Assembly (NCBI GenBank): GCA_030524545.1
Contig: JAUNGM010000002.1
Location: 62,001 to 126,000 of the forward strand
DNA length: 64,000 bases
From: Eubacteriales bacterium
Lineage (GTDB): Bacteria > Bacillota > Clostridia > Lachnospirales > Lachnospiraceae
Direction: 5' to 3'
Shown: positions 56,713 to 60,220 of the stretch, in pieces
Numbering within the stretch: position 1 is the first letter of the stretch
How the letters are laid out: every line of letters begins with the position of its first letter
Notes under the pieces: model-generated
Told to the model about the DNA's origin: nothing
Databases searched by the model: none
What the model saw: the letters and a program-made list of their open reading frames with translations, nothing else
Program-made: the position numbers and the translations under genes

Positions 56713-57258
56713 TTATTTACAGTCTTTGCATGTTTCCATACACGGCATATCAAAGCTTGGGTTGAACGCATAGAAGTTTTTGGATTCCAATTGTTCCTGG
56801 ACACTTCTGAGGGCTTCACCGAAACGCTGGAAGTGTACGACCTCCCGGGCCCGAAGGAATTTGATCGGGTCAGCGATTTCCGGAATATCGCGGACTACAC
56901 GGAGGATATTGTCATAGGTGGAACGTGCTTTCTGCTCTGCTGCAAGATTCTCAAACAAATCGGTAATGGGGTCACCTTTGCTCTGGAATTCACATGCATT
57001 AAAAGGAATTCCTCCGGCAGCCTGAGGCCATACGGCAACAGTGTGGTCAATATAATAAGGACCAAGGCCGGAGTTCTCGATTTCTTCCATGGTGAGATTC
57101 CTGGTGAGCTGATGAACGATGGTGGAGACCATTTCCAGATGGGCAAGTTCTTCCGTGCCAACATCGTTTAATACTGCCATAGCCATACGGTTCGGCATGG
57201 TAAAACGTTGGGAGAGATATCGCATGGAAGCACTGATTTCACCATCCGGACCACCATA
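56713..57258 (-). CDS. cotJC: cotJC, 3' segment (spore-coat manganese-catalase-like protein)
   Basis: The last 181 codons of a CotJC-type coat protein, a manganese-catalase-fold di-iron/di-manganese protein of the spore inner coat. The frame reads from TAT 57258 as YGGPDGEISASMRYLSQRF and includes the metal-ligand block GTEELAHLEMVS, the second ligand set AAEQKARSTYDNIL and REVVHFQRFGEAL. A start at the internal ATG 57225 would lack the first helix, and no ribosome site serves it. The missing 28 codons lie at 59398-59481, beyond a 2.1-kb recombinase element, in the matching frame. A joined protein would be 209 residues, normal for the family. Confidence 0.9.
   Translation of the reverse strand, partial: YGGPDGEISASMRYLSQRFTMPNRMAMAVLNDVGTEELAHLEMVSTIVHQLTRNLTMEEIENSGLGPYYIDHTVAVWPQAAGGIPFNACEFQSKGDPITDLFENLAAEQKARSTYDNILRVVRDIPEIADPIKFLRAREVVHFQRFGEALRSVQEQLESKNFYAFNPSFDMPCMETCKDCK
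57251..57258. other. Probable attachment site, left end (CCACCATA)
   Basis: CCACCATA at 57251-57258 matches CCCCCATA at 59390-59397 in seven of eight positions, with a shared core CCATA. It lies at the exact point where the cotJC reading frame breaks, 71 bp from the recombinase stop. Confidence 0.7.
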
Positions 57259-57328
57259 TAACTGTAACCTATAACTTGCCGGAACCCGCGCAAAGTATTA
57301 TGTTTTTGCAGGAACGGCGTGCTTGCAG

Positions 57329-58768
57329 CTATGAGTGGTACAGATAAAAAGTGAGAGTATGGTTTTTCTTATCGTAAATGATCTTTTCTACAATAGAACG
57401 GATGAAAATTCCCTTGATCTCATAATCGATGTCCCTGTTCTGAATAATGTCGTAAACGGTCTGAGGTTCTGAAAACTGTTTTTGAACTGTTTTTTCCGGC
57501 AGTTCTTTTGTGACCTGAACCCGGAAATTTTCAATACGTTCTTTTTCGGCGAGCAGCCGGGTTTTATTTTCTTTGTATTCTTCCAGGGTGTCCACGCCGG
57601 ATTCGTAGGCATATTTGATACGCTGTTCGCGAAGAGAAAGTTTTTCTAACTCCAGTTCATAATAGGTTTTTTCGCAGGGTGTAGGATCATTCTGAGAAGA
57701 GGGCGTACTGCAGAAAACGAAGTCAGACCCGGACAGGAGTTTTTTGAAATATTCCAGAATACCGTTGGTCAGTTCCTTCTCGGATATTCCGGAGGTCTCT
57801 TTGTGGATGCCCTTGGCATATTTCCAGCAATTAAAGAAGGGATATTTACAGGTATTATAGGAAAGGCTTGCGCCGCAGACAGAGCATTTTACAAGGCCGG
57901 AGAGCCAGTGTCTGCAGGATGAGATGCTGCGGCGTTTTGGGGACTTATAGGTATCAGCATCGATACGCTGTGCTTCCAGAAACTGTTTTTCAGATATGAA
58001 GGTTTCATGGGTTCCATTTGCTTTGATTCCATTCCATTCGAGCCTGCCAATATAAAAGGGATTTTTCAGTATGTAGGAAATGTTTCTTTTTTCAAAGGCA
58101 CCGCCGCGTTTCGTATGGACTCCCATATCATTTAGCTGCCTTGCGATAGCTGTGGGTTCCCTGTGATATTGACAGTATTGCTCAAAAATGTATTTCACAG
58201 TGTGCGCTTCGGCAGGATCAACAACAAAAGGCCTGCCATTTCCGACTGCCTGATATCCGAGCGGAGGGGAGGACTGATAGCCGCCGCGCATGGCTTTTTC
58301 TGTCATCCCTCTGACAACTTCCCCGGATAAGTTGATGGAATAGTATTCATCCATCCATTCAATGATTCGTTCGATCAGACTGCCGAATGGACCGTCGATC
58401 AGCGGTTCCGTAATGCTGATCACATCCACATTACATTGCTTTCGGAGCATGGATTTGTAAACGATGGATTCCTCTTGATTTCTGGCAAAACGGCTGAATT
58501 TCCAGAGGAGGATCGTGTTAAAAGGGGAAGGCCTGGACTTAGCCAGAGAAATCATGTGCTGAAATTCCGGACGTTTGTCAGCTTTCCGTCCGGAGATGCC
58601 GTTTTCTATAAAGATGTATTCCGGTTTTACCAGGATCTTGTTTTTTTGGGCATAGTCCAGCAGGAGTCTCTTTTGAGCAGCAGGAGAAAGCTCTTCCTGT
58701 TTATCTGTGGATACCCGGATATACAGGGCACCGGTGCGGCTGTTCGGAAGAGATGTTTGTTTTTTCAT
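57329..58768 (-). CDS. Large serine recombinase (SpoIVCA/integrase type)
   Basis: 479 residues. The resolvase catalytic domain begins ALYIRVSTDKQEE with the nucleophilic Ser in RVST (about residue 20) and arginines in WKFSRFARN. The recombinase domain (about 165-270; PPLGYQAVGNGRPFVVDPAE, ISYILKNPFYIGRLEWNG) follows, then a zinc ribbon (CSVCGASLSY...FFNCW) and a coiled coil (about 375-435). This is the plan of large serine integrases, including the one that excises skin from sigK. GGGTGAT favours ATG 58768 over 58780. It should recombine the CCATA-core sites around it and so remove or insert the element in cotJC. Confidence 0.94.
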   Translation of the reverse strand: MKKQTSLPNSRTGALYIRVSTDKQEELSPAAQKRLLLDYAQKNKILVKPEYIFIENGISGRKADKRPEFQHMISLAKSRPSPFNTILLWKFSRFARNQEESIVYKSMLRKQCNVDVISITEPLIDGPFGSLIERIIEWMDEYYSINLSGEVVRGMTEKAMRGGYQSSPPLGYQAVGNGRPFVVDPAEAHTVKYIFEQYCQYHREPTAIARQLNDMGVHTKRGGAFEKRNISYILKNPFYIGRLEWNGIKANGTHETFISEKQFLEAQRIDADTYKSPKRRSISSCRHWLSGLVKCSVCGASLSYNTCKYPFFNCWKYAKGIHKETSGISEKELTNGILEYFKKLLSGSDFVFCSTPSSQNDPTPCEKTYYELELEKLSLREQRIKYAYESGVDTLEEYKENKTRLLAEKERIENFRVQVTKELPEKTVQKQFSEPQTVYDIIQNRDIDYEIKGIFIRSIVEKIIYDKKNHTLTFYLYHS

Positions 58769-58855
58769 AATATCACCCATTTATTTTATGAGCTTCTTAA
58801 GGTAAAAAATACACTGGTACAAGTCTTTTTACATATCCTACAAAGGGGTGATTGT

Positions 58856-59056
58856 GTGCCGTTAAAAGTGATCAGTATGGTAAAAGTGGACGGCCGATGG
58901 GTTGAACAGGAGGATATGCCGGAAGAGAAATTTCAGGAAATACTTGAGCAAGTGATGATCCGGGCAGCGAATGCAATTGGCGTAAGAGCAGAAAAAATGT
59001 CCGCAAAAACTGCAGAAAAAAGCGATAAAACGATGGAGGGTCGGGAACAGGTTTGA
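58856..59056 (+). CDS. Small 66-residue protein of the cotJC element
   Basis: A small frame from GTG 58856, behind AAAGGGGTG, ending two bases before the converging XRE stop. The sequence starts MPLKVISMVKVDGRWVEQED, then a helix (EEKFQEILEQVMIRAANAIGV) and a Lys/Glu-rich tail. I recognise no family. It is the only gene of the element on the plus strand and diverges from the recombinase, a position often taken by recombination directionality factors or controllers; that role is a guess. Confidence 0.6.
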   Translation: MPLKVISMVKVDGRWVEQEDMPEEKFQEILEQVMIRAANAIGVRAEKMSAKTAEKSDKTMEGREQV

Positions 59057-59058
59057 GA

Positions 59059-59268
59059 TCAAAGATCAGACTTGTCTGTACGCCCAACCATATAGTCGAT
59101 GGATACATGGTAATGATCACACAATGCAATAAGGGTTTCCAGAGGGATACTGCGGGTGCCGATTTCATAATGAGAATAGGCACGCTGAGAAACATGGACA
59201 GCATGGGCGATTTCCGCCTGGGTTAAATTGTGTTTTAAACGAAGTGTACGGATTCTTTCGATTTTCAT
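59059..59268 (-). CDS. XRE-family HTH regulator of the cotJC element
   Basis: 69 residues, one Cro/C1-type helix-turn-helix: KIERIRTLRLKHNLTQAEIA, then HVSQRAYSHYEIGTRSIPLE and LCDHYHVSIDYMVGRT. It could repress the recombinase gene, which lies downstream on the same strand. AGAAGG sits before ATG 59268. The frame is also open without a stop back through the attachment site into the cotJC 5' segment, so a 140-residue CotJC-XRE fusion can be read, but the ribosome site supports the short form. Confidence 0.85.
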   Translation of the reverse strand: MKIERIRTLRLKHNLTQAEIAHAVHVSQRAYSHYEIGTRSIPLETLIALCDHYHVSIDYMVGRTDKSDL

Positions 59269-59389
59269 GTATAAGCCTTCTTTCCTGATGATAAAAAAAT
59301 CATACCACAAGAATCCGTTCAGGAAAATAGTTTTCTGGATATTTATCAGGAAATCTGTATGATGGGGGGATGGGGTACCGGAATCAGGC

Positions 59390-59397
59390 CCCCCATA
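59390..59397. other. Probable attachment site, right end (CCCCCATA)
   Basis: Partner of the site at 57251-57258. To its right the cotJC 5' segment begins in frame. The next bases leftward belong to the element. Confidence 0.65.
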
Positions 59398-59481
59398 CTG
59401 ACTCATGATAAACAGTGCAAGTTTTGCATTTGGTGTTTTGATATTGACCGGATACTCTAATCTTTTTTCATAATTCCACAT
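59398..59481 (-). CDS. cotJC: cotJC, 5' segment (first 28 codons)
   Basis: ATG 59481 behind AAGGAGGATG opens MWNYEKRLEYPV then NIKTPNAKLALFIMSQ, the conserved N-terminal helix of CotJC. The next codon is the shared TAT at the attachment core, after which the frame enters the element (GGPDSGTPSP). The start lies directly after the cotJB stop, as in intact cotJ operons. Without excision the cell can make only a short fusion, not CotJC. Confidence 0.9.
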
Positions 59482-59766
59482 CTATCTGCATCCTCCTTCC
59501 TGTTCCCATGGGAATGGCTGTTCCATCCATTTCCAGGTATCACCGCAGGAAAATTCTGCGTCATCAACGGTGAGCGGGCCAAAAGCACGGGCATATTCCT
59601 TCATCAGCTCCCGGCGTCTGGAGACATTTTTCTGATAAAATTCCATAGCCTCTTTGTCACAGGGATGTGTGTCCAGATAAAGCAGAATATCATATACGGC
59701 AAAGCTTACCTCATTGATTTCCCGAAGAAGCTTTGCTCTGTTTTGGGACTGGTTTGACGTCATCAT
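59482..59766 (-). CDS. cotJB: Spore coat protein CotJB
   Basis: 94 residues: LLREINEVSFAVYDILLYLDTHPCD and FYQKNVSRRRELMKEYARAFGPLT are the conserved CotJB blocks, mostly helical with a Trp-rich tail (DTWKWMEQPFPWE). CotJB is part of the inner-coat CotJ complex made in the mother cell under SigE in Bacillus. Its ATG overlaps the cotJA stop by 4 bp, and cotJC follows with no gap, showing a tight three-gene operon. Confidence 0.92.
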   Translation of the reverse strand: MMTSNQSQNRAKLLREINEVSFAVYDILLYLDTHPCDKEAMEFYQKNVSRRRELMKEYARAFGPLTVDDAEFSCGDTWKWMEQPFPWEQEGGCR

Positions 59767-60128
59767 CTTCGAGCACCTCGCTTTCCGCAGAATGGTTTAC
59801 AAAGTTCCGGGAAGACTGTGCCTGCCTGCAGGGCGTAGCAGAGATCAAAGGTACGCGTAAATTTCTGGCAGGGAACATATCCCATGGCAGGAGGGAGCAT
59901 ATCGGCTTTTGCATACAGTTCTGCTTCCTTCGGAGCCATCCCTGGCATATGGCAGTTACAAGTGGAATTTCTTTCGCATTCGCATTGCCCTGAAGTTCTC
60001 GCAGACATCCGTTCAGGCGCGGACATCCGTTTCGGCATGGGTATCCGCTCAGATGCAGGCATTCTGTTCATGCCGCAGGTAGTGCGGTAAGGACGGCCGC
60101 AGGAACGGCCCATCTGATAATTTTCCAT
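59763..60128 (-). CDS. cotJA: Spore coat associated protein CotJA
   Basis: 121 residues. The conserved C-terminal part MLPPAMGYVPCQKF...YALQAGTVFPELCKPFCG (about 75-115) marks CotJA. The first 60 residues are a Met/Arg/Cys/Pro-rich, low-complexity stretch with RM-containing repeats, longer than in Bacillus. AGAAAGGA before ATG 60128 lies in one arm of the inverted repeat at 60138-60193. It is the first gene of the cotJ operon, which shows that the organism descends from spore formers and probably still makes spores. Confidence 0.88.
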   Translation of the reverse strand: MENYQMGRSCGRPYRTTCGMNRMPASERIPMPKRMSAPERMSARTSGQCECERNSTCNCHMPGMAPKEAELYAKADMLPPAMGYVPCQKFTRTFDLCYALQAGTVFPELCKPFCGKRGARR

Positions 60129-60137
60129 GAAAAAAGT

Positions 60138-60193
60138 CCTTTCTGTTTCGAAATTGCGGTTACACTTTAGTTTATGTCATGGAAACAGAAAGG
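60138..60193. repeat. Perfect 12-bp inverted repeat in the cotJA leader
   Basis: CCTTTCTGTTTC (60138-60149) and GAAACAGAAAGG (60182-60193) are exact complements 32 nt apart. Read leftward, the 3' arm holds the cotJA Shine-Dalgarno and is followed by a T-run. It could be a long-loop tetR terminator, a translation-blocking hairpin or a protein site around the cotJ promoter. Confidence 0.65.
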
Positions 60194-60220
60194 TGTGCAT
60201 ATGATATCCGTATTATCTTT

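Follow-up and report, generated by a model that had tools for sequence, protein, structure and literature searches.

A 2.1-kb serine-recombinase element in the coat gene cotJC of a Lachnospiraceae bacterium is a probable minimal sporulation DNA-excision module

In the window analysed here, a 64,000-nucleotide stretch of Eubacteriales bacterium DNA (Lachnospiraceae; assembly GCA_030524545.1, contig JAUNGM010000002.1, positions 62,001 to 126,000), the gene cotJC is interrupted at codons 30-32 by an element of 2,139 bp, measured from crossover to crossover. Three likely genes occupy these 2.1 kb: a large serine recombinase (LSR), an Xre-type regulator and a 66-codon open reading frame (ORF) designated sm. 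Removal of the element in silico at a core common to both ends restores, without a frameshift, a cotJC of 630 nt (209 codons plus stop). We consider the element quite likely to be a minimal intervening element of the skin type, excised in the sporulating mother cell. As a sporulation DNA-excision module it appears to be real, minimal and probably working; excision in this strain, its mother-cell timing and a benefit to the host that would make it a “switch” are what we infer from the comparisons below.

Read along the minus strand, the locus runs through cotJA, cotJB, codons 1-28 of cotJC, the element, and then the remaining cotJC down to 56713 (Table 1). Each element end has a copy of codon 29 (Tyr) and of the Gly-Gly-Pro core. 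As in skin-like elements, the interrupted gene is a sporulation gene: the cotJ operon has an established role in sporulation, and cotJC lies right behind cotJA and cotJB. The initial annotation had described a cotJC split by an element with its own serine recombinase, removable in frame to give a 209-residue protein with no codon lost; coordinates, Pfam domains and the 209-codon join agree with this description. Its view of a compact excisable element in a coat gene is likewise backed by the recombination-site comparison, the in-frame joins of relatives, the constraint on 3′ halves and the sporulation-type promoter motifs. Phage genes, which it had reported absent, were not recognised by Pfam among LSR, Xre and sm; none of the three matched a phage structural family in Pfam, and a PHROGs scan was confined to sm relatives. 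A search of the bacterium's own genome for cotJC returned the two window pieces only, with no joined copy in the assembly and no second intact cotJC. A weak second manganese-catalase profile match (G000:C51:282-500) gave no CotJC match and was dropped as a candidate second copy, as it fits the Pfam profile but is not CotJC-like. The sigK and spoIVA genes of this genome are both uninterrupted.

Comparison of the element ends showed that TATGG-N-GG-N-CC is common to both, and placed the crossover inside GGNGGNCC (59387-59394 and 57248-57255), which encodes Gly30-Gly31-Pro32 of the YGGPDGE motif. A short direct-repeat core and a restored reading frame, as expected of a skin-like element, are found together. 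The initial annotation had taken CCATA as the core. This was rejected, since the conserved block common to both ends, in 16 other elements and in a free attP copy, is GGNGGNCC, and CCATA is just its edge. At junctions of this kind, both ends of 17 elements including that of the window follow a palindromic design, in which GGNGGNCC is flanked on each side by 8 nt and then a 9-nt arm, the second arm being the inverse of the first. The two outer arms match at a mean of 7.5 of 9 positions across these elements (range 5-9), with 7 in the window, where the attL arm was compared with the inverted attR arm, and 8 in L083 after realignment. The arms covary, as L101 carries ATATCTTAA on both sides in place of ATAGGTTAC; it also has the one variant 5′ core among the 17, GGTGGTCT. 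The recurrence of the same break point in 17 element pairs, with constant spacing of arm and core, argues that the break is not due to chance. We also entertained the imperfect attL arm of the window as the mark of a dead element and rejected this, as 7 of 9 lies inside the 5-9 span seen across all 17.

A scan of viral contigs found the predicted joined site attP intact in two of them (L246:103-144 and L247:310-351), and a search of both records for cotJC gave no match. L246 and L134 are the same contig. Over 9.1 kb it shares 95.5% identity with L135, where the element adjoins cotJC. Past the LSR both L134 and L135 read TTATAGGTTACTGCACTCCGGTGGACC and then diverge at GGTGGACC, L135 into cotJC and L134 into the other attP arm, which maps the exchange to the GGNGGNCC core.

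The 17 element pairs, including that of the window, were joined in silico at the core. The script missed two of them, L101 with its variant core and L083 with a coordinate offset; the other 15 all stay in frame across the core and on into conserved CotJC; seven of them reach 207-209 codons and eight continue until homology ends near a second break site (B or C, below). In eight split members of the genus, the cut-off 3′ halves had a median pN/pS of 0.111 (28 pairs), the corresponding figure for 14 intact genes being 0.113 (91 pairs); dN/dS was 0.042 (6 pairs) and 0.041 (23 pairs), respectively, with the other pairs saturated. Such constraint fits a cotJC that is still in use, and recent insertions would fit it as well.

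A manganese-catalase profile search of 116 relatives matched 79, many with cotJC in pieces. Among 64 genomes of the window's genus, 44 had a cotJC match, which by our reading of the printed match tables (used for spoIVA also) was whole in 19, split in 22 and unclear in 3 (G007, G008, G056). The splits fall at four sites: A (codons ~30-32) in 11 genomes, B (~62-65, GTEE) in 7, C (~134-136) in 2 and D (~174-177) in 2. Three genomes are doubly split, namely G033 (A+B) and G055 (A+C), tallied under A, and G036 (B+C), tallied under B. Both pieces lie on one contig in 14 of the 22; in the other eight (G010, G011, G015, G017, G020, G029, G033, G054) they are on separate contigs, whose ends fall at the recurrent sites, and in G010 a 3′ piece was found alone with an LSR in front. 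As a control, spoIVA was whole in 37 of 42 matches in the same genomes and in none clearly split by a kilobase-scale insert; the remaining five comprise contig-edge pieces (G012, G032), two pieces a few bases apart (G022, G034) and an unexplained partial match (G017). Assembly breaks were therefore judged an unlikely cause of the splits, given the 14 single-contig cases, the recurrent ends of the rest and the spoIVA control.

Where both ends were on one locus, site-A elements measured 2.1 kb in the window, ~2.9 kb in L059, and about 3.7, 4.0, 4.4, 4.6, 4.7, 5.1, 5.8, 6.9, 7.9, 9.1 and 14.3 kb in others, with ~39 kb in G004 and ~55 kb in G052 by match positions; that of the window is the smallest measured. 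At sites B, C and D a distant LSR match lay beside the pieces in most loci read. Beyond site A, the breaks in cotJC at the three motifs GTEE, AAEQ and RFGEA mostly adjoin LSRs of other lineages (L046-L051, L238, L239, L241-L244, L065, L127), and some genomes have two breaks. In Blautia parvula NBRC 113351 (L064), too, a site-A element is accompanied by another cotJC break near site B. A full-length CotJC paralogue of 62-66% identity stands beside the main copy in G014, G026, G008, G043, G050, G059, G042 and G052; such a paralogue also occurs in some species with a split copy, where it might buffer the loss.

The window LSR carries Resolvase, Recombinase and zinc-ribbon domains, may alternatively start at 58768 behind GGGTGAT, and has a serine, Ser24, which we take to be catalytic and which is invariant across eight aligned LSRs including its own. 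Its gene ends 56 bp from the attR arm, so that, as in skin-like elements, the recombinase lies by its own att site. Among eight LSR-profile matches in this genome it is the only one of its kind (E=4.5e-246; next, 4.2e-13). Relatives were drawn from the best 80 loci of at least 512 genome-collection stretches and the best 80 of 145 viral loci, 160 loci together. In the genome set the neighbour was a cotJC piece at 48 loci, a piece of a SpoIID-domain/PG_binding_1 gene at 24, another gene at 7 and a contig edge at 1; in the viral set the corresponding counts were 16, 13, 19 and 32 (contig end). LSR and cotJC lie on the same strand in 28 of the 48 genome loci and on opposite strands in 20. In a tree of 128 LSRs built by a quick method, that of the window falls in a group with L053 and L054, two LSRs that also sit at cotJC (SH-aLRT 99 and 97). 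Targets cluster on this tree, with 23 changes for cotJC against 42.6 when shuffled and 13 against 25.7 for the SpoIID-type gene (0 of 500 shuffles as low), and neither target forms a single clade. The SpoIID-domain gene, whose domain suggests that it acts in sporulation, is the other gene that this LSR clade hits recurrently. The break lies close to a CPNWMTQWGS motif; 5′ pieces were seen in L087, L094, L096, L097, L109, L115 and L163, and 3′ pieces in L081, L107 and L181.

The small ORF sm is separated from the divergent LSR gene by 75 bp, is convergent with the Xre gene, and occurs once in its own genome. An iterative hidden Markov model (HMM) search from two seeds returned 106 sm-like ORFs at E<0.01. 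Within the 160 loci, 100 of 101 such ORFs (75 of the 101 being non-redundant at 80%) are encoded on the opposite strand from the LSR, and among loci whose LSR has 9 kb or more of upstream sequence, sm was found in 26 of 42 from genomes and 50 of 56 from viral contigs. The lone exception, L058:2635-2769, lies on the LSR strand downstream of cotJC on a 3.5-kb contig and is possibly a misassembly or a second element. On the basis of its linkage and promoter motif, sm is a candidate recombination directionality factor (RDF).

A motif of the form CATANNNTA, presumably the sigma-K/sigma-E promoter type (the two sigmas are not told apart here), precedes all three of cotJA, LSR and sm in the window. 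It was found upstream of cotJA in the window, in the form CATAAACTA, and in 14 related loci listed, two of them from the same genome. In front of sm, where 105 sequences reduced to 80 non-redundant ones, the consensus centres on AACAAGTACAACCA and CATANNNTA ahead of the ribosome site, and 70 of 80 regions align on CATA plus the ribosome-site motif. CATANNNTA occurs before 31 of the 80 sm ORFs. Among controls drawn from the same loci (ORFs with an ATG start, a ribosome-site motif and a length of 60 codons or more, LSR genes included) it precedes 57 of 1516, and 500 shuffles gave a mean of 1.9 and a maximum of 7; TATAAT shows the opposite distribution, 1 of 80 against 163 of 1516. Of 156 LSR upstream regions, 82 have a T-rich motif, and CATA stood at the expected place in 28 of 58 non-redundant ones (1000 shuffles: mean 4.2, maximum 11). 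Many loci (L118, L093 and L083, for example) share one more feature before sm, an operator-like stretch of conserved sequence around AACAAGTACAACC that falls between the likely -35 and -10 regions; AAGTACAA occurs in 12 of 80 regions and 2 of 1516 controls.

These observations suggest how the element may behave. The LSR would once have brought it into cotJC, at the Gly-Gly-Pro codons, through attP x attB recombination, and vegetative cells would retain it and carry a broken gene. During sporulation, mother-cell sigma-factor promoters of the CATANNNTA type would turn on the cotJ operon, the LSR and the divergent sm; acting as RDF, sm would shift the LSR from integration to attL x attR recombination, releasing the element as a 2.1-kb circle and restoring cotJC scarless in the mother-cell chromosome. 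The mother cell would then die, with the element retained in the forespore. At other times the Xre protein, probably a repressor, would keep the divergent LSR/sm promoter silent. The role of sm as excision trigger is proposed by analogy with the Clostridioides difficile RDF, which depends on sigma-E and SpoIIID.

Table 1. Features of the interrupted cotJC locus (positions in the window)
Feature	Position	Strand	Basis
cotJA	59763..60128	-	Pfam PF11007 E=3.1e-16
cotJB, immediately upstream of cotJC	59482..59766	-	Pfam PF12652 E=8.4e-30
cotJ operon promoter-like GCACACC-N15-CATAAACTA	60168..60198	-	motif comparison
cotJC 5′ piece, codons 1-28	59398..59481	-	translation and join; start at 59481; CotJB, CotJA upstream
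attL core GGGGGGCC (Gly30-Gly31-Pro32)	59387..59394	-	comparison of element ends
attL element arm: 8-nt spacer + 9-nt arm GTACCCCAT	59370..59386	-	comparison of element ends
Xre/Cro-type HTH regulator, 69 codons	59059..59268	-	Pfam HTH_3 E=1.9e-15
sm, 66 codons, GTG start; candidate RDF	58856..59056	+	family by iterative HMM
CATATCCTA (CATANNNTA), sporulation-type -10 motif before sm	58832..58840	+	motif comparison
CATAAAATA (CATANNNTA), -10-like motif before LSR	58782..58790	-	motif comparison
LSR, 483 aa; Resolvase, Recombinase, zinc-ribbon domains	57329..58780	-	Pfam PF00239, PF07508, PF13408 above cut-off
attR element arm: ATAGGTTAC + 8-nt spacer	57256..57272	-	comparison of element ends
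attR core GGTGGTCC	57248..57255	-	comparison of element ends
cotJC 3′ piece, codon 29 to stop, Mn-catalase domain	56713..57258	-	Pfam PF05067 E=3.8e-37; join

Several results weigh against scheduled excision during sporulation. The attP-bearing viral contigs could be incoming phage and not excised forms. The median pN/pS rises to 0.169 (78 pairs) once five more distant split genes are added, and the constraint on the halves could predate insertion, dS being saturated in most pairs. CATANNNTA is missing before 49 of the 80 sm ORFs, and the T-rich motif used for aligning is missing from 74 of the 156 LSR upstream regions. CATA precedes LSRs outside cotJC as well (cotJC, 11 of 26; other locations, 10 of 17; contig ends, 7 of 15). 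Nor is sm universal, as 16 of the 42 genome loci lacked it at the sensitivity used, and it matched no family of known function in Pfam, PDB (below E 0.01), PHROGs or NCBIfam; 10 of 40 members match phrog_26314, to which no function is assigned, and single members weakly match three other PHROGs and one NCBIfam model. Published RDFs, according to the accessible part of PMC5025042, are small and without significant similarity to one another.

Three other explanations were weighed. A degraded mobile element may have inserted recently and inactivated a cotJC that is dispensable or being lost, with no restoration scheduled. An assembly without joined cotJC, a window attL arm less typical than the attR arm, a full-length paralogue in some split species, and 20 of 64 genus genomes without a cotJC match (many incomplete), which hint that the gene may be lost at times, would all suit such decay. 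It sits poorly with the complete LSR, sm, Xre and att sites kept within 2.1 kb, with the in-frame pieces of joined relatives and within-genus constraint equal to that of intact genes, and with a gene split in 22 of 44 genomes when spoIVA is clearly split in none, and we regard it as distinctly unlikely. Somewhat less so, though still unlikely in our judgment, is excision by phage-like or stress induction or at random, with the promoter motif a habit of these phages. Close LSR relatives do reside in viral contigs, and CATA outside cotJC points the same way; yet CATANNNTA is rare before other ORFs of these loci, the sigma-A-like TATAAT is nearly absent before sm, and 72 of the best 80 genome loci adjoin one of two sporulation-type genes. 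Finally, an ATG at 57225 opens a 170-codon ORF, from which the 3′ half might be translated as a shortened catalase, so that the split would be tolerated without excision. That product would lack residues 1-39 and with them Glu35 of the GGPDGE motif, presumably a manganese ligand in manganese catalases, and in doubly split relatives no single piece retains even that much; this we find most improbable.

Taken together, these data incline us, with some reserve, to a joint picture in which developmental DNA splicing in gut Clostridia has a standing hot spot in cotJC. Four conserved sites of this one small gene would be used by distinct LSR lineages, sometimes two sites at once, so that some species would have to excise several elements per mother cell for a single coat protein. 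A whole LSR clade would reside mostly in two sporulation-type genes, sharing a small RDF and mother-cell promoters, and the window element would be its reduced end state, a cargo-free “DNA intron” of recombinase, RDF and regulator. On this picture cotJC may need DNA-level splicing at every spore formation, and an annotation that calls these genes broken would give a false view of spore biology. The element would also offer a natural minimal excision module, with predicted attB, attP, attL and attR sites and a candidate RDF family, for studying directionality control of serine recombinases.

Known sporulation intervening elements are described as single cases in the accessible parts of their reports, and here the gene is split in about half of the cotJC-bearing species examined in one gut genus. 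Programmed DNA rearrangement may thus be a routine matter among gut spore formers. The accessible parts of PMC5595907, PMC4191935, PMC5025042 and PMC10747680 place such elements in sigK, spsM, gerE, spoVFB, spoVR and yabG. The kind of system is therefore known; its target, size and abundance were not found described in the open-access literature searched, among the matches listed. There, cotJC did not appear as a target of an intervening element: it occurred only in PMC4028888, PMC3416734 and PMC2648990, whose titles do not concern such elements, and the accessible parts of PMC10083194 and PMC11318856 name no cotJC target. By the accessible accounts, vfbin in spoVFB and vrin in spoVR (PMC4191935) and yin in yabG of Clostridium botulinum (PMC10747680) likewise interrupt sporulation genes, at other targets, and are prophage-like or bear phage genes. 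SP-beta in spsM of Bacillus subtilis (PMC4191935) also has a recombinase that restores a spore-envelope gene by precise excision, but it is a prophage, whereas no phage genes were recognised in the window element. The skin-Cd element in sigK of C. difficile (PMC5025042) pairs an LSR with a small RDF, CD1234, as proposed for the window; CD1234 requires sigma-E and SpoIIID, and skin-Cd is excised in the mother cell. It has a sigma factor as target, 19 genes and an LSR under a sigma-A promoter, in contrast to the coat gene of the window and the sporulation-type motif at both LSR and sm. Also among the closest systems, as far as the accessible description goes, is gin in gerE of Bacillus cereus ATCC10987 (PMC5595907), which like the window element is non-phage, carries a serine recombinase and recombines at a short core in a sporulation gene. 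Excision of gin, with the 42-aa RDF GirX and the rebuilding of gerE in sporulation, is proven, whereas the window element is known from its sequence; gin spans 28.6 kb with 31 genes and three recombinases, and the element in cotJC of this probable Blautia relative spans 2.1 kb with one.

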